Shown here piece after piece: positions 6,316-44,562 of a stretch of 64,000 nt of DNA. The position numbers and the translations under genes are program-made. Each line of letters begins with the position of its first letter. Position 1 is the stretch's first letter. This DNA is from Thalassobacillus devorans MSP14. Its GTDB lineage: Bacteria; Bacillota; Bacilli; Bacillales; Halobacillaceae. The stretch covers positions 784,641 through 848,640 of the forward strand of contig NZ_KI543237.1 in the NCBI RefSeq assembly GCF_000496835.1, given 5' to 3'. Below the pieces are notes generated by a model. The model searched no databases. It was not told where the DNA came from and saw nothing but the letters and a program-made list of their open reading frames with translations.

Positions 6316-7212
6316 TTGCAAATAAAAGAACTAGAAGTGAAAGACTTACAAAAGGTTGCAGAATGGCTCTACCATATGAACGAGCAGGACAAGCATTTCG
6401 TAGCCTGGCTAGCTTCTGATCAGAATGAAATCTATGAACAAATTTGGACGTTGACCCAATTCACTGATCCACTGGCATATGTAGCATGGGAAAATAATAA
6501 GATTATCGGATTTCTCGGCATCCTGCCATTTTTCGAGCAAAAGCTATGCCGGCTGCTTGGTCCGTTTGCAATGGAACAGGAAACAGAAGTGATGGAAGGG
6601 TTATGGGATAAAGCATCGTTAACAATGGAACTTCATTTTAAAGCTGTAAAGGTTGCCAGTTTTAAAGCAAATAGTCATTTGATAGACTTTTGTGAACGAC
6701 ATCGTTTCCATCTGTATAATATTGAAAAAACGATGGCTATTCACCGTTATGACTACCAACCCGGCCAGCATGATGCCCGTAATGTTGTAGAAGTCATGGA
6801 CGAGGATGAAGCAGAAATCAACCGCCTTCACCCAAAAGGTGCCTATTACACCACACAGGAAATGATGACCCTATCCCGCAAAGAATCTAATAAGCTATGG
6901 GGCTATCAAACGGAAGGCCAGCTCAAAGGTTACCTTTACTTTGAAACGATCATACCGAATGAAGAAGGGGAAATTTGCTTTGTAAATGTCGACCAGGACG
7001 AACGCAGTCAGGGAATCGGCACGGTGCTGATTGACCATGCCCTCCAATACGCATTTCTTGTCCTCGGCCTGGAGGAAGTAACCATATCGGTACGTACAAA
7101 CAATGAAGGGGCAGAGAGTCTGTATCGTGAATTTGGTTTCAAGGAAGCACAAACTATCTTTGCGTTTGAAAAGCTGTTCCAGGAGCCTGTACTGAAAAAC
7201 CCTTTCCATTAA
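6316..7212 (+). CDS. GNAT-family N-acetyltransferase (two-domain length)
   Basis: 298 residues, about twice a single GNAT domain. The C-terminal half has a clear acetyl-CoA binding motif A (DQDERSQGIGTVLIDHAL, ~225-242) and the motif B ending ESLYREFGFKEA. The N-terminal half (LYHMNEQDKHFVAWLAS, VAWENNKIIGFLGI) looks like a degenerate GNAT fold. The substrate cannot be told. The open frame begins with TTG, preceded by a modest AGGCAGG; no better ATG lies nearby. A single gene between two terminators. Confidence 0.75.
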   Translation: MQIKELEVKDLQKVAEWLYHMNEQDKHFVAWLASDQNEIYEQIWTLTQFTDPLAYVAWENNKIIGFLGILPFFEQKLCRLLGPFAMEQETEVMEGLWDKASLTMELHFKAVKVASFKANSHLIDFCERHRFHLYNIEKTMAIHRYDYQPGQHDARNVVEVMDEDEAEINRLHPKGAYYTTQEMMTLSRKESNKLWGYQTEGQLKGYLYFETIIPNEEGEICFVNVDQDERSQGIGTVLIDHALQYAFLVLGLEEVTISVRTNNEGAESLYREFGFKEAQTIFAFEKLFQEPVLKNPFH

Positions 7213-7286: not shown

Positions 7287-7391
7287 TAAACGTGCGACAA
7301 TACAGCCTAATCGTGCAAGTCAGAGTGTTAAACGTGTGACTGCTGGTAATAAACGTGCAAGTTTCGCAACTAAATGTGAGGGCACTGAATC
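7287..7391. repeat. Array of five ~12-nt motifs at exact 21-nt spacing
   Basis: Motif TAAACGTGCAAGT (degenerate) starts at 7287, 7308, 7329, 7350 and 7371, a constant 21-nt period. The 8-9 nt between motifs are not conserved. It lies between the terminators of the convergent GNAT and GH65 genes. There is no coding potential. Confidence 0.85.
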
Positions 7392-7446: not shown

Positions 7447-9744
7447 TTAAAAGGATAATTTTGTTGTTTCATCCGTTAGTACTTCCACTTCTTCTCCATT
7501 CACAAACAGTTTTACACTGGTCCCTTCCACTAAATCCAGTGCAATACCGTCGCGGGATACTTTCACTTTGATCGGCCGCCCGTGGTAATGAATATGAAAG
7601 GCATAGCTGTTCCATTGCCCGGGCAGTTTCGGGGTTAAATGCAGACCATCCGGTTTAATGCGCAGGCCGGCAAACCCGAAGACGATCGCCATCCAGGTTC
7701 CTCCCATGTTAGCCATGTGAAGCCCGTCTTTTGTATTTCCATGTGTGTTATCCAAATCCAGCCGGGCTGTACCTTCAAAATAATGATAGGCTTTATCCAT
7801 ATCTCCCAGCTTGGACGCCATCATACTGAACACACAGGAGGACAATGATGAATCATGCGTCGTAATCCGCTCATAGTAGTCATAGGAATGATGGATCGTC
7901 TCCTCATCACTGTAGTCTTCCAACAGAAAATGCGCCAGTACTGTATCTGCCTGTTTACACACTTGATAACGATACAAAGTCAAAGGGTGGTAATGCAATA
8001 ATAAAGGATAATGTTCCTTCGGTGTATTTTCAAAATCCCAAACCGCTTTGTTTAAAAAGCTGTCATCCTGCGCATTGATTTGCAGGTTTTCATCGTATGG
8101 GAGGTACATAGACTCAGCTGCTCGCTTAAAACTTTCCACTTCCTTTTCAGAAAGGTCCAGCCGCTCCCATAGCTTTTCAGCATCATTATCCTGCCAGGTT
8201 TTCATTTTTTCGTAAATACGATAAGCCCATTCCAGATTGTACTTTGCCATGGCATTAGTATAGTAATTATTATTAACAATGCAGGTATACTCATCAGGCC
8301 CGGTGACGTTGTCGATGCCAAAGGTGCCATCCTTGCGGAAATGCCCCATATCGACCCAAAGACGGGCAGTTTCCATCAGCACCTCCGCCCCATAGTCCAT
8401 CAGGAAGACGTCATCTCCGGTAGCATGGTAATACTGAACATAGCTGTAGGCAATGTCTGCACTAATATGATACTGAGCCGTTCCAGCAGGAAAATAGGAC
8501 GAGCATTCTTCCCCGTTTATCGTTCTCCATGGAAAAAGGGCTCCCTGGTTGTGCCCCATTTCTAACGCTCGTTTACGAGCGTTGTCTAAAATAGAATGGC
8601 GATAGACCAGCAACTGCTTGGCCAGCTCTGGAGCTGTCATCAAAAATACAGGAATCATATAAATTTCTGTATCCCAGAAATAATGCCCTTCATAGCCTTC
8701 CCCACTTAAACCTTTCGCCGTGATATTACTGAATTTATCTCTTCCGGCAGATTGCAGCAAATGGTAAAGGTTGAACCGGATTCCTTCCTGTAAGGACTCA
8801 TCACCATCTACTTCTACATCGCTCCGCTCCCAATATTGTTGGAGATATTTTTCTTGTGCTTCCAACAGCTGATCCTCCTGGATGCTGTCTAATTGACCTT
8901 TAATCCGTACTGCTTTCTGTCGTAAATCCCCGTTGTGACGTAAGTCGTCCACGTAAATGTTCCACTTACTGAAGACAACCGGCTTATCCTGATCGGCTTG
9001 AAATTCATACGTGAACACAATCCGTTGTTCCTCTGCTTCCTTACTTATATCCACGAGCTTATCATCAAGGCCTTTATGATAACTCAGGCAAGCCATTTCC
9101 AGTTCCGATCTCTCTGCTTTACTTTTAAGAAAAGCATTTTCATCAAAAATTTCCGACTCATTCACGTGCAGCAGCTTGGCATGTCCCGCTCCAACTCTTG
9201 GATCCCCGGGATCTACGAAGTTTTCTACTTCTCCGTCCAGCGTGGATACAATTGTGATAGTATCATTGAAGTTCAATGGAACGACCGAGACTTTAATAAA
9301 GAACAACTCACGGTGTACAAAGGACACCACGCGCTCGAAATGAATTTCCACCTCTTTCCCCAATGGAGATTTCCATTTGATCGACCTGACTGTTTTTCCT
9401 TTGTCCAGGTGAAGAACCCTTCCGTATTCCAGCACCTCCCCTTCCTGAATGGAGAAATGTTCTTTTTCTTTACCTAAATAGATATGGATGGTCTGGCCAT
9501 CAATGACATTCAACATTTTCTGCTGCGTATCCGGGAACGCGAACAATTTTTCTCCATAGGGGATGTCAATCACGTCATGAAAAGCATTCAAATAGGTACC
9601 GCGTACTGTCGGTACTGCTCTGCCATATGATTCTTCAAAATTTCCTCTTACGCCGATATAGCCATTGCCAAGAAAGAATAAGCTTTCTTCATTATTCAAA
9701 TCCAATTCTTTGATGGAATGCCGCTCAATTTTCCAACTCATCAT
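7447..9744 (-). CDS. Glycoside hydrolase family 65 phosphorylase (maltose-phosphorylase-like)
   Basis: About 765 residues, full length for the family: N-terminal beta-sandwich, helical linker, (alpha/alpha)6 catalytic barrel, C-terminal beta sheet. The catalytic general acid is the Glu of TGPDEYTC (~residue 485), matching E487 of characterised maltose phosphorylases, and the phosphate/sugar region GYEGHYFWDTEIY is intact. Such enzymes split maltose (or kojibiose, trehalose, nigerose) with phosphate to glucose and beta-glucose-1-phosphate in the cytosol; specificity is not readable here. Two adjacent ATG codons (9744 and 9741) follow GGGAGGAG at ideal spacing; the upstream in-frame ATG would overlap that site. 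The usual partners (beta-phosphoglucomutase, sugar permease) are absent. Divergent from an AraC-type regulator. Confidence 0.88.
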   Translation of the reverse strand: MMSWKIERHSIKELDLNNEESLFFLGNGYIGVRGNFEESYGRAVPTVRGTYLNAFHDVIDIPYGEKLFAFPDTQQKMLNVIDGQTIHIYLGKEKEHFSIQEGEVLEYGRVLHLDKGKTVRSIKWKSPLGKEVEIHFERVVSFVHRELFFIKVSVVPLNFNDTITIVSTLDGEVENFVDPGDPRVGAGHAKLLHVNESEIFDENAFLKSKAERSELEMACLSYHKGLDDKLVDISKEAEEQRIVFTYEFQADQDKPVVFSKWNIYVDDLRHNGDLRQKAVRIKGQLDSIQEDQLLEAQEKYLQQYWERSDVEVDGDESLQEGIRFNLYHLLQSAGRDKFSNITAKGLSGEGYEGHYFWDTEIYMIPVFLMTAPELAKQLLVYRHSILDNARKRALEMGHNQGALFPWRTINGEECSSYFPAGTAQYHISADIAYSYVQYYHATGDDVFLMDYGAEVLMETARLWVDMGHFRKDGTFGIDNVTGPDEYTCIVNNNYYTNAMAKYNLEWAYRIYEKMKTWQDNDAEKLWERLDLSEKEVESFKRAAESMYLPYDENLQINAQDDSFLNKAVWDFENTPKEHYPLLLHYHPLTLYRYQVCKQADTVLAHFLLEDYSDEETIHHSYDYYERITTHDSSLSSCVFSMMASKLGDMDKAYHYFEGTARLDLDNTHGNTKDGLHMANMGGTWMAIVFGFAGLRIKPDGLHLTPKLPGQWNSYAFHIHYHGRPIKVKVSRDGIALDLVEGTSVKLFVNGEEVEVLTDETTKLSF

Positions 9745-9860
9745 TATTCTCCTCCCTGCTTTCATAGTGGCAGTCTAACGAGTTCGTTCCCATTTGCTCC
9801 AAATCTATTTTTTCCCGTTATACTGTATGGACAAACACCCTTCATTTCAAATATAACCGC

Positions 9861-41262: not shown

Positions 41263-43407
41263 ATGATGCTAGTACAAGCAAGAGAAAAATTACAAGAATA
41301 TTTCGGCTACCCTTCCTTCCGGCCAGGTCAGGAAGATGCGATTTCTCAAATATTACAAGGAAACAATACGTTAGCTGTGATGCCGACAGGCGGTGGGAAA
41401 TCCATTTGCTATCAAATACCAGGCCTTGTACAACCGGGCACAGCCATTATCATTTCACCGCTCATTTCTTTGATGAAAGACCAGGTGGATGCCCTTACCT
41501 CGATGGGAGTGGCAGCAACTTATATCAATAGCTCCCTGAGCATGGAAGAACAGCAGGAACGTGTGCGTGATATGAAACGCGGCCGTTATCAATTCGTGTA
41601 TGTTGCACCAGAACGGTTCGATTCCTCGAATTTCTTTTATGCGATTCAATCGATTCCATTAGCACTGATTGCTTTCGATGAAGCGCATTGTATCTCACAA
41701 TGGGGTCACGATTTCCGGCCTAGTTACCGCTCTATCGTTCCGTTATTGAAAAAGCTAAACAACCTTCCGACCATGATGGCATTGACAGCCACTGCGACCA
41801 AAGAAGTCATCCACGATATCCAGGAGCTGCTTCATGTGCCGGAAAACTCTGTCATCAACACAGGTTTTGCCCGTGATAATCTCTCCTTCCGCTTGATTAA
41901 AGGACAGGATAAACGGGACTTTTTACTGGATTATGCCACCAGGCGAAAGAGTGAGTCCGGAATCATTTATGCAGCCACCCGGAAAGATGTCGACTTCATT
42001 CATCAGTATTTACTAAAAAAAGGATTCCAGGCAGGAAAATACCATGCCGGCCTTACGGAAGACGATCGAAAACAAGCCCAGAACAGCTTCATTCAGGATG
42101 AAACGCTGATCATGGTTGCAACGAACGCGTTCGGCATGGGGATCGACAAGTCGAACGTCCGCTACGTCATCCATTATTCGATGCCGATGAATATCGAATC
42201 GTATTATCAGGAAGCAGGCCGTGCTGGGAGAGATGGTGAACCGAGTGAATGCATCCTGTTATTCTCCGGTCAGGACGTCAACTTGCAGAAGTATATGATC
42301 GAGCAGTCAACCTTACCGGAAGATAAAAAGTCTAAAGAGTACGAAAAACTGCAGTCCATGGTGAACTATTGCCATACCCACCACTGCCTGCAGCAGTATA
42401 TCCTCGATTACTTCCATGATCCGACAGGAAGTGAACCGTGCGGGCGCTGCTCCAACTGCTTGTATGATGGAGAACGGGAAGATATGACAAAGGAAGCCCA
42501 GATGGTTTTATCCTGCGTCAAACGTATGGGAGAACGTTTCGGAGCTGGCCTGACTGCCAAAGTGCTGCGCGGGTCCGCTGATCAGAAGGTGAAAGAATTC
42601 GGTTTCGAGCGTCTGAGCACCTATGGGTTGATGTCTCAATATAAGGAAAAAGAACTGACCAGCTTCATTCATTTTTTGACGGCAGAAGACCTGTTGAATC
42701 CGGGACAGGGAAAGTTCCCGACTTTACAGCTGACACCAAAAGCAGTCGATGTATTAAAAGGCGAGAAACAGGTGTGGATGAAAATTGAGAAAGCAGCGCA
42801 ACAGACCCCTGTGGACTACCACCAGGAGTTGTTTGATTCCTTGCGTCATTTGCGGAAAGAAATTGCTGACAAGCATGACCTTCCGCCATACGTCATTTTT
42901 TCAGACGCTACGCTTAAGGATTTTGCACGATATTTTCCTGCATCAAAGACAGACATGCTGGCAATCAAAGGTGTCGGGGAAAGGAAATACGAACAATATG
43001 GAGAAACTTTCCTTGCTGCCATCGAACCTTGGAAAGAAAAGCTGCCTGCCAGTAAAGCCGTCAAAGGACCGACTCCGATTTTCCAAAAGAAATCCGAGCA
43101 GGATAAATTACCAAGCTACATGATTTCTTACCGATTATGGAAAGAAGACGGCAAAGATTTGGAAGCCATTGCCCGTGACCGCGGTATGAGCGAAATCACA
43201 ATTGAAAACCACCTGTTCAAAGCAGCAGGAGAAGGGTATGATTTTGACTGGGAGCAATGGTTTGATGAGGCAGTTGAAGCAGAGGTTATGCGCGCACGCG
43301 AAACGTTGGAAAAGGATGAGGGCTTGAAGGCGTTGCGAGAAGCGCTGGATAACGCTTATACTTATGCCACCATAAAAGGTGTGCTTGTGAAAAATGGTCT
43401 GATATGA
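41263..43407 (+). CDS. recQ: ATP-dependent DNA helicase RecQ
   Basis: 714 residues. SF2 helicase core with motif [13 protein letters not shown] (K46), DEAH box [18 protein letters not shown] (~138-155) and motif [18 protein letters not shown]; zinc module with C...CGRCSNC (~380-404); RQC; HRDC (~510-585) followed by a C-terminal HTH extension ([20 protein letters not shown]). Unwinds recombination and stalled-fork intermediates. Longer than B. subtilis RecQ (591) because of the C-terminal extension, common in Bacillaceae. AAAGGATGAT precedes two adjacent ATGs. Confidence 0.95.
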
Positions 43408-43415
43408 AAGTTCAA

Positions 43416-43450
43416 AAAATGCCCTCGATGATTAATCATCGGGGGCATTT
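43416..43450 (+). terminator. Terminator of recQ
   Basis: AAATGCCCTCGATGAT pairs with ATCATCGGGGGCATTT. Confidence 0.85.
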
Positions 43451-43461
43451 CTCAACCTAGT

Positions 43462-43620
43462 TGTCTAGAAAAATCCTTGCCTGTCCAGTAAATTTTATAA
43501 AATGTCTAGTAAAATTTCCAAAGTGTCTAATAAACTTTGGAAATTGTCGAGTAAACTCAATTATTGTCTTGAAAATCAACAGATCTGTCTTGTATACCTA
43601 CTGTCTTGTCTAGTATTTAA
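43462..43620. repeat. Array of eight TGTCTAGTAAA motifs at 20-21-nt spacing
   Basis: TGTC motifs start at 43462, 43482, 43503, 43524, 43545, 43565, 43586 and 43607 (steps 20, 21, 21, 21, 20, 21, 21). The consensus is TGTCTAGTAAA with 10 variable nt. Units 3 and 4 include a perfect 12-bp inverted repeat, AATTTCCAAAGT (43513-43524) and ACTTTGGAAATT (43534-43545), that could terminate rbsK on the minus strand. Located between the convergent recQ and rbsK genes. Confidence 0.85.
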
Positions 43621-43657: not shown

Positions 43658-44539
43658 TTACGATTCCTTTTCTCTGATGAACTCTAGGACTGCTTGCTCT
43701 GTAGGCATGCCCCCCTGTGCTCCCGATTTTGTTACTGATAAGGCAGAACCAGCATTGGCGATCTTGCACGCCTCCTCCAGATTGTCCCCACGAGCCAGGC
43801 AAGTACTCAATATGCCACAAAACGTGTCACCGGCCCCCGTTGTATCAACGGGATTAACTGGATAGCCTGGGATTTGGACGGTCCCTTCTTTAGAATAAAA
43901 CATAACCCCTTGCTTACCCTTCGTGATAAGAAGCTTGTCGTGCAGGTCTGTACTACCAGCAATCAAGTCTGCTGCTTCTGCTTCATTCGGGATTACATAT
44001 GTAACCTTTTCTAACAGCTTACTGCTCAATTGCTTCGAAGGGGCTGGATTCAAAATAATTGGTACTCCAGCTTCATACGCAATTTGAGATGTTTTTTCCA
44101 CAGACTCCATCGGAATCTCCAATTGAAGTAACACCATATCACTTTCAATAACCAAGTTACGATGCTCTTCTATATGTTCAGGTGTGACCCTCCCATTCGC
44201 ACCAGGAACAACAATAATCCGATTATCACCCTCGGTCAATAAAATAGTAGCTGTACCTGTCGACATGTCTTTTATGGAACAAACTCCGGCAGCCGATATT
44301 TTTTCTTCTGCTAAAATCAAAGAAAGTGATTGAGCAAACCCATCGCCCCCTACAGCCCCGATCATAGAAACTTCAGCGCCGAATCGAGCAGCAGCAACTG
44401 CTTGATTAAAACCTTTACCACCAGGGTAGGTAGCAAAGGAAGTCCCGTGCAGCGTTTCTCCTTTTTGTGGCATACGATCGAATGTAGTTGTCAAGTCCAT
44501 ATTGATACTTCCAACCACTGTAATTTTAGGGCGCCTCAT
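43658..44539 (-). CDS. rbsK: Ribokinase
   Basis: 293 residues, PfkB family. Ribokinase-type substrate motif GGKGFNQAVAAARFGA (~38-53), NPAPSK, and the catalytic GAGDTFCGIL (~247-256) with anion hole. Phosphorylates ribose to ribose-5-phosphate. No ribose permease or RbsR lies nearby, so another pentose or nucleoside-derived substrate is possible. ATG 44539 is 8 nt after GAGGAG; the GTG start of the longer frame abuts that site. Last gene of a four-gene minus-strand operon. Confidence 0.88.
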   Translation of the reverse strand: MRRPKITVVGSINMDLTTTFDRMPQKGETLHGTSFATYPGGKGFNQAVAAARFGAEVSMIGAVGGDGFAQSLSLILAEEKISAAGVCSIKDMSTGTATILLTEGDNRIIVVPGANGRVTPEHIEEHRNLVIESDMVLLQLEIPMESVEKTSQIAYEAGVPIILNPAPSKQLSSKLLEKVTYVIPNEAEAADLIAGSTDLHDKLLITKGKQGVMFYSKEGTVQIPGYPVNPVDTTGAGDTFCGILSTCLARGDNLEEACKIANAGSALSVTKSGAQGGMPTEQAVLEFIREKES

Positions 44540-44562
44540 TTTATCCACTCCTCAGAATCCTC

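Follow-up and report, generated by a model that had tools for sequence, protein, structure and literature searches.

Homing endonuclease genes are site-specific nuclease genes that lie beside their own site and pass through cyclic gene loss, and CRISPR and TIGR arrays present a repeat-spacer look next to a nuclease-like gene. The arrays described here share with the former a nuclease-like gene adjoining a candidate site, and the loss of that gene, but their sites are multi-unit arrays with many solo copies that have no gene; they differ from the latter in that their spacers are orthologous and drift, in that many of the arrays are short and solo, and in that they are known from DNA sequence alone.

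A closer precedent is RAYT (TnpA-REP) with its REP/BIME repeats, for which two papers describe a gene flanked by its own repeats, with cognate repeats dispersed intergenically and co-evolving with the protein (PMC2817692, PMC8266576). The arrays treated here are likewise dispersed between genes and co-vary with a protein; however, RAYT is an HUH tyrosine transposase of the IS200/IS605 superfamily, whereas the linked genes here encode NERD proteins, and REPs are palindromic, whereas the NERD-linked units are asymmetric direct repeats at 20-21 bp that fold weakly. The same domain (PF08378) occurs in SmdA, PglW and MAD6, and there are weak matches to PglW and MAD6, but the arrays accompany one NERD subfamily alone. 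The authors of a NERD paper state that the role of bacterial NERD proteins is unstudied to their knowledge, and the portion of it consulted does not mention repeats (PMC9040797). In the open PMC literature, outside of which most subscription papers lie, we met no report joining NERD with repeat arrays; the nuclease-gene-linked 21-base arrays of Bacillus relatives are apparently a large, undescribed system.

We propose, at a probability of roughly 70%, that the array at the recQ-rbsK junction of Thalassobacillus devorans MSP14 belongs, as a solo site array, to a two-part NERD-linked repeat system, RAYT/REP-like in its working but made of unrelated parts.

Two phased arrays in one window

The window is the whole 64,000-nt stretch analysed. 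At 43462-43617 (+ strand) lies an array of type A, in which eight TGTCTAGTAAA-like units start at 43462, 43482, 43503, 43524, 43545, 43565, 43586 and 43607, with steps of 20, 21, 21, 21, 20, 21 and 21 nt and mutually unlike spacers of 9-10 nt. The unit at 43503 matches TGTCTAGTAAA exactly, and the others deviate from it at one position (four units) or at two (three units). Tandem Repeats Finder reports 43482-43557 at period 21 (3.6 copies, score 75). When 4-mers are chained at steps of 20-22 nt over the whole window, the maximum is 8, reached by TGTC, compared with a maximum of 5 in 200 dinucleotide-preserving shuffles of the window. The motif taken alone, with up to two mismatches, is not enriched in the window (19 found versus 16.4 expected), so the unusual feature is the spacing.

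The array sits between recQ (41263-43407, +; DEAD, Helicase_C, RQC and HRDC domains) and a convergent PfkB-family carbohydrate kinase of the rbsK type (43658-44548, −), with a terminator-like hairpin, an inverted repeat at 43417-43450, between recQ and the first unit. The sequence-only reading had described just such a run of eight motifs at a convergent junction, together with a perfect 12-bp inverted repeat, and that repeat is exact at 43513-43524 / 43534-43545, where it consists of the spacers flanking unit 4. It is probably peculiar to this array, since the RNA of such arrays folds weakly on average.

A second array of the same period, also described in that reading, lies at 7287-7391 and has five TAAWYGTG units (GCACGWTTA-like on the − strand) starting at 7287, 7308, 7329, 7350 and 7371, each step being 21 nt; ORFs at 6316-7212 (+) and 7447-9765 (−) converge on it. 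Its reverse-strand motif GCACGWTTA (motif 2) is the one that flanks a NERD gene of the same genome, G000:C2:328581-329519 (L243), on both sides, with a two-sided similarity of 0.82; judged by its motif, 7287-7391 is a solo array of the L243 gene. The suggestion that both arrays represent variants of a single system is thus supported: type A is found beside NERD genes in T. cyri and Piscibacillus and motif 2 beside one in the window's own genome, which makes them two families of one system.

Type A arrays in the genome and the genus

The window's genome (G000, 3.94 Mb) contains 12 A arrays of 3-9 units each (the detector gave 13 entries, with one array entered twice), and for three patterns its matches exceed those of the reversed-pattern control (39 versus 11, 40 versus 8 and 27 versus 0). 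The consensus of units preceding a 21-nt step is TGTCTAGTAAA followed by a weak A/T preference. The first step is 20 in seven of the eight G000 arrays measured, and later steps are mostly 21. The spacers of these dispersed arrays are mutually unlike, so the arrays are not recent copies. To the same genus belong G001, G003 and G004, which we take to be T. cyri, T. devorans CECT 7046 and T. devorans Marseille-P394, respectively; the A pair pattern was found in four of five genus members (none in G002), one of 32 other members of the family and one of 24 other members of the order.

Seven of the 12 A arrays of G000 lie within 185 kb (G000:C1:683269-867985) of a 1.85-Mb contig, and T. cyri has five A places on a single 130-kb contig (C25). 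We considered and rejected a polar replication fork trap, with nine arrays co-oriented and three anti-oriented by GC skew (one of the nine weakly assigned). Elsewhere on the G000 contig, G000:C1:1235862-1235889 has three mismatches to a dif consensus, and the sign of GC skew flips between samples around this dif-like site.

Arrays of other taxa and the question of transposon ends

A scan of a species-genome collection for similar arrays gave at least 114 stretches, many of which, with like spacers and from other phyla, were set aside as ordinary minisatellites. Among the matches listed, arrays with multiple units and unlike spacers came mainly from Piscibacillus, Filobacillus, Aquisalibacillus, Gracilibacillus, Halalkalibacter, Fictibacillus, Ureibacillus and several Chloroflexota MAGs, and each taxon measured has its own variant of the unit. 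The solo arrays of Chloroflexota (L093, L094, L104, L125, L136, L144, L147, L153, L166 and others) have the consensus TGTCCAGTTTTcGGCCGAATG, 5-7 units and mostly a first step of 22, which holds for 13 of the 14 arrays of the Chloroflexota set (12 labelled Chloroflexota and two from the unclassified MAG RHO3_bin_31). Examined regions of 3-8 kb around Chloroflexota arrays of like architecture contained no NERD gene, and no transposase was recognised by eye in four TGTCCAGTTTTcGGCCGAATG loci inspected. In another family of the order, L054 (G040:C1:4141790) is a long motif-2-like array with alternating steps of 20 and 21, away from the NERD genes among the matches listed for its genome.

TGTC-led sites at 20-22 bp resemble the ends of Mu/Tn7/IS21-type transposons, and the arrays might be solo ends of such an element, perhaps conferring target immunity. 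We find this very improbable: the arrays have one orientation without an inverted partner; the IS21 family (NF033546) has no match in six of 15 array-bearing genomes searched, G000 included; the 28 IS21 loci present in the others of the 15 have no TGTCYAGT-like arrays; and Mu-transpos_C (PF09299) occurs in just two of the 15. The IS21 and Mu-type searches of these 15 genomes found no DDE transposase with arrays at both ends.

Linkage of the arrays to one subfamily of NERD genes

For the analysis of neighbours, 54 loci were picked by eye, mostly with unlike spacers and with three- and four-unit arrays of other phyla excluded. All-against-all comparison of the ORFs next to the arrays, combined with a Pfam scan of 75 proteins, found NERD (PF08378) recurring in three genera; among the best 25 of 111 neighbour families it has three members and every other family has at most two. 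DUF2332 was dismissed as a recurrent neighbour, its pair deriving from orthologous loci. At all three NERD loci (T. cyri L109, Fictibacillus L069 and Piscibacillus L168) the array opens with its first unit 2-6 nt past the NERD stop codon in the same orientation, with motif A in Piscibacillus as in T. cyri, and a variant of it in Fictibacillus; the linked genes scanned as NERD with E-values of 1e-22 to 3e-10. At the orthologous locus of G000 (C1:830749, L010) the NERD gene has been deleted, from the 5' part of its coding sequence through into the array; what remains is four units and a 68-aa NERD remnant. No intact NERD-A gene was found in G000 among the matches listed, where the profile has two matches, one of them the motif-2 gene.

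A profile of the three NERD proteins gave matches in 50 of 61 genomes, and 90 loci were read among the matches listed (60 of them chosen at E-values up to 7.3e-47). Already in the first 30, 26 have an array of 19-23-nt period within 500 bp, each with its own motif. Altogether, an array of 19-22-nt period lies within 500 bp of the NERD gene at 79 of 92 loci (76 of 89 without the three seeds) and was not detected within that distance at the other 13. It is downstream only at 43 loci, upstream only at 22 and on both sides at 14, and downstream arrays start at a median of 11.5 nt past the NERD stop codon. A scan of periods from 10 to 45 at 50 NERD loci has peaks only at 19-22 and its double; at period 21, 45 kb of NERD flanks yielded 58 arrays, spread over 40 of the 50 loci, against one in 132.5 kb farther out at the NERD loci and one in 200 kb of random G000 sequence. 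By contrast, none of 20 low-scoring NERD loci (E-values of 3e-22 to 3e-9) has an array, so the linkage is a property of one NERD subfamily.

Three NERD-side arrays, L238 (809-1476), L242 (453-986) and L245 (1002-1450), have 22-33 similar units, as if amplified in tandem recently, and may show how arrays are born. They also lend some support to reading the recQ-rbsK array as an ordinary tandem repeat, or as chance. This is the least probable of the readings that we weighed: no shuffle of 200 reaches an eight-unit chain, and the spacers are unlike while the motif is conserved and kept between species.

The NERD matches of several genomes contain internal stops or are split into pieces, as one would expect if such genes are frequently lost. 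A NERD-like tblastn match of 70 aa (49%) at L119 (844-1053), on an Odoribacteraceae contig, falls inside an 18-unit repeat and is perhaps simply a translation of that repeat.

Co-variation of motif and protein

Where arrays lie on both sides of the NERD gene, the two sides have a common motif at 12 of 14 loci, taking as common a similarity that exceeds the 95th percentile for pairs drawn from different loci; 11 are direct and one is inverted, unlike the inverted copies that flank RAYT, and the two loci with unlike motifs are L247 and L297. Over the 75 of 92 loci that have an array and a frame of at least 290 aa, motif similarity correlates with NERD identity (Mantel r 0.36, 0 of 2000 permutations). 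Mean motif similarity is 0.31-0.32 for NERD identities below 35%, 0.40 at 40-50%, 0.51 at 50-60%, 0.43 at 60-70%, 0.51 at 70-80% and 0.77 above 80%; the relation is uneven, and shared descent accounts for part of it. A comparison by windows along the NERD protein singled out none that would determine the motif (best r 0.21).

Several NERD genes of one genome can have different motifs, as do L225, L256, L258 and L259 of G024. Arrays with the motif TTCTGACATT were found in three of 14 genomes searched, or three of 11 in genus g4, and each of the three has an array beside a NERD gene and in one to three places elsewhere. These three genomes are those in which a TTCTGACATT NERD gene was seen (for the remaining eight of genus g4, part of the NERD genes were read).

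Conservation of the motif and the fate of the spacers

Motif letters are conserved between species above the spacers. In six orthologous arrays of the genus, 81% of motif columns are identical compared with 58% of spacer columns (pooled Fisher p 2e-13). Two reservations apply: some loci were picked up through their motif, so that the test is tilted towards this outcome, and the columns cannot be taken as independent observations. Motif identity exceeds flank identity in all six, narrowly in one. The spacers are orthologous between species and drift about like the flanks.

This behaviour of the spacers bears on the idea that the arrays act at the RNA level, being transcribed and cut to guides or hairpins of about 21 nt that would serve the NERD nuclease much as CRISPR or TIGR arrays do theirs. 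A conserved stretch of about 10 nt alternating with a variable one of about 10 nt, adjoining a nuclease-like gene, would suit such a system, and single arrays do fold somewhat (window z −2.2, best −4.2). However, the mean folding z of 47 arrays is just −0.85 / −0.83, spacers that are orthologous and drift like flanks speak against guides, and the period of two helix turns is constant whatever the motif. We therefore hold an RNA-level system to be improbable.

Type A and type B in Thalassobacillus

The NERD-A protein of T. cyri and the NERD-B protein of T. devorans CECT 7046 are encoded by syntenic orthologues and are 61% identical. The array behind the former is of type A (TGTCTAGTAAA) and the array behind the latter is of type B (TGTCTCTCTTA). 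Pattern matches for A and B number 27 and 1 in T. cyri, 8 and 32 in CECT 7046, 16 and 15 in Marseille-P394, 27 and 2 in G000, and 0 and 1 in G002, with reversed-pattern controls of 0 except for one A match in T. cyri.

At the recQ-rbsK junction itself G000 has an A array, and both CECT 7046 and Marseille-P394 have a B array in the same register; T. cyri and G002 have no array there. There are four orthologous junctions (recQ-rbsK, the NERD locus, L005 and L364) at which G000 or T. cyri has A and CECT 7046 has B in the same orientation, and at the latter three both flanks are syntenic between G000/T. cyri and CECT 7046. The unit-by-unit alignment of A with B is clear at recQ and L005 and less so at the NERD locus and L364. 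The sequence-only reading had asked whether the spacing would be lost in relatives; it is kept at the aligned orthologous junctions.

The partition is not strict. Five junctions (L012, L020, L013, L006b and L108) carry type A in a T. devorans genome as well, and some B arrays occur in G000 and T. cyri. A arrays for which no cognate NERD gene was found number 12 in G000, three detected in CECT 7046 and eight in Marseille-P394; the last also has 11 B arrays without NERD-B, an A remnant at its own NERD locus and no close NERD gene (for T. cyri, CECT 7046 and Marseille-P394, the arrays compared are a subset of those in each genome).

A more specific version of our reading is that each NERD gene of Bacillaceae owns a helically phased array motif and acts on it in trans across the chromosome, and that the dispersed arrays are converted where they stand, one unit after another, following a change of NERD specificity, as between A and B in Thalassobacillus, the rewriting being due to selection or to nuclease-driven conversion. 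We put this forward tentatively, at slightly short of even odds.

Gene context and a possible host role

Gene context was counted for 43 arrays of three genomes with a simple ORF caller. The arrays are not scattered at random within genes, a possibility that had been raised beforehand: 40 are placed between called ORFs, and the three that a called ORF overlaps were set aside. Of the 40 with neighbours called on both sides, orthologous arrays being counted apart, 23 are in convergent gaps, 16 in co-directional ones and one in a divergent one; a background of 106 gaps in G000 has 17 convergent, 68 co-directional and 21 divergent. Several arrays abut terminators.

These figures speak for the main rival to NERD-driven spread, a chromosomal site useful to the host, in which NERD or another host protein on phased arrays at gene ends would act as a roadblock, an insulator or an anchor for supercoils or the nucleoid, and the linkage to NERD genes would reflect autoregulation or common descent. 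The conservation of the motif above the spacers fits this too, as does the persistence of solo arrays that have no spacers in common and lack a known cognate gene. Yet a genome may have up to 11 NERD matches, with differing motifs, and occurrence is patchy, with an A match absent from G002. A host site of this kind seems to us unlikely, although it deserves far more weight than the other alternatives.

A proposed NERD-linked repeat system

The features that can be read from the sequences in favour of a NERD-linked system are the linkage of gene and array, the sharing of a motif by both sides of a gene, the occurrence of different motifs at different NERD genes, the co-divergence of motif and protein, cognate solo arrays, and conservation of the motif over the spacer. 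At several orthologous junctions, moreover, one lineage has another motif type, and this is the type that accompanies its own orthologous NERD gene.

The first part of the proposed system would be a gene for a NERD-subfamily protein of about 330 aa, PD-(D/E)XK-like and with a C-terminal zinc ribbon. In the 75 NERD proteins, the characteristic D and ExK positions of PD-(D/E)XK nucleases are over 80% conserved. We had considered the zinc ribbon as a mark of array-linked NERD proteins and rejected it, as it is present in unlinked ones alike (73 of 75 array-linked, 13 of 13 high-scoring unlinked and 16 of 20 low-scoring proteins). A structure model of the protein is poor (mean pLDDT 55.5), and its best PDB match, SduA of Shedu (8ps5; E-value 8.5e-4, TM 0.23), is a mere hint of a PD-(D/E)XK core. 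A PDB sequence search with the NERD profile gave no match below an E-value of 0.024. In viral contigs, 87 stretches fit a peptide pattern for NERD relatives and none was confirmed.

The second part would be the asymmetric motif of about 10 bp, recurring at intervals of 20-21 bp, or two helix turns, next to the NERD gene and again in solo arrays between genes elsewhere, often at convergent junctions. The NERD protein would bind the motif as double-stranded DNA, with several molecules lined up along a single helix face, as the period is fixed at two turns and the sites are non-palindromic. By analogy with RAYT/REP, we infer that the nuclease spreads the arrays: it would help them to arise and to multiply, the whole being a REPtron-like and largely selfish element retained in tolerant gaps. 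NERD genes would often be lost and solo arrays left behind, as is seen at G000 C1:830749.

NERD proteins are common and hardly studied, and one subfamily of dozens of members would gain a predicted DNA target that can be read from the genome. If the proposal is true, Gram-positive bacteria would have arrived, with unrelated parts, at a second version of the RAYT/REP arrangement of a gene tied to scattered extragenic repeats, and the natural A/B differences between NERD orthologues would make the recognition of DNA by the protein directly testable.
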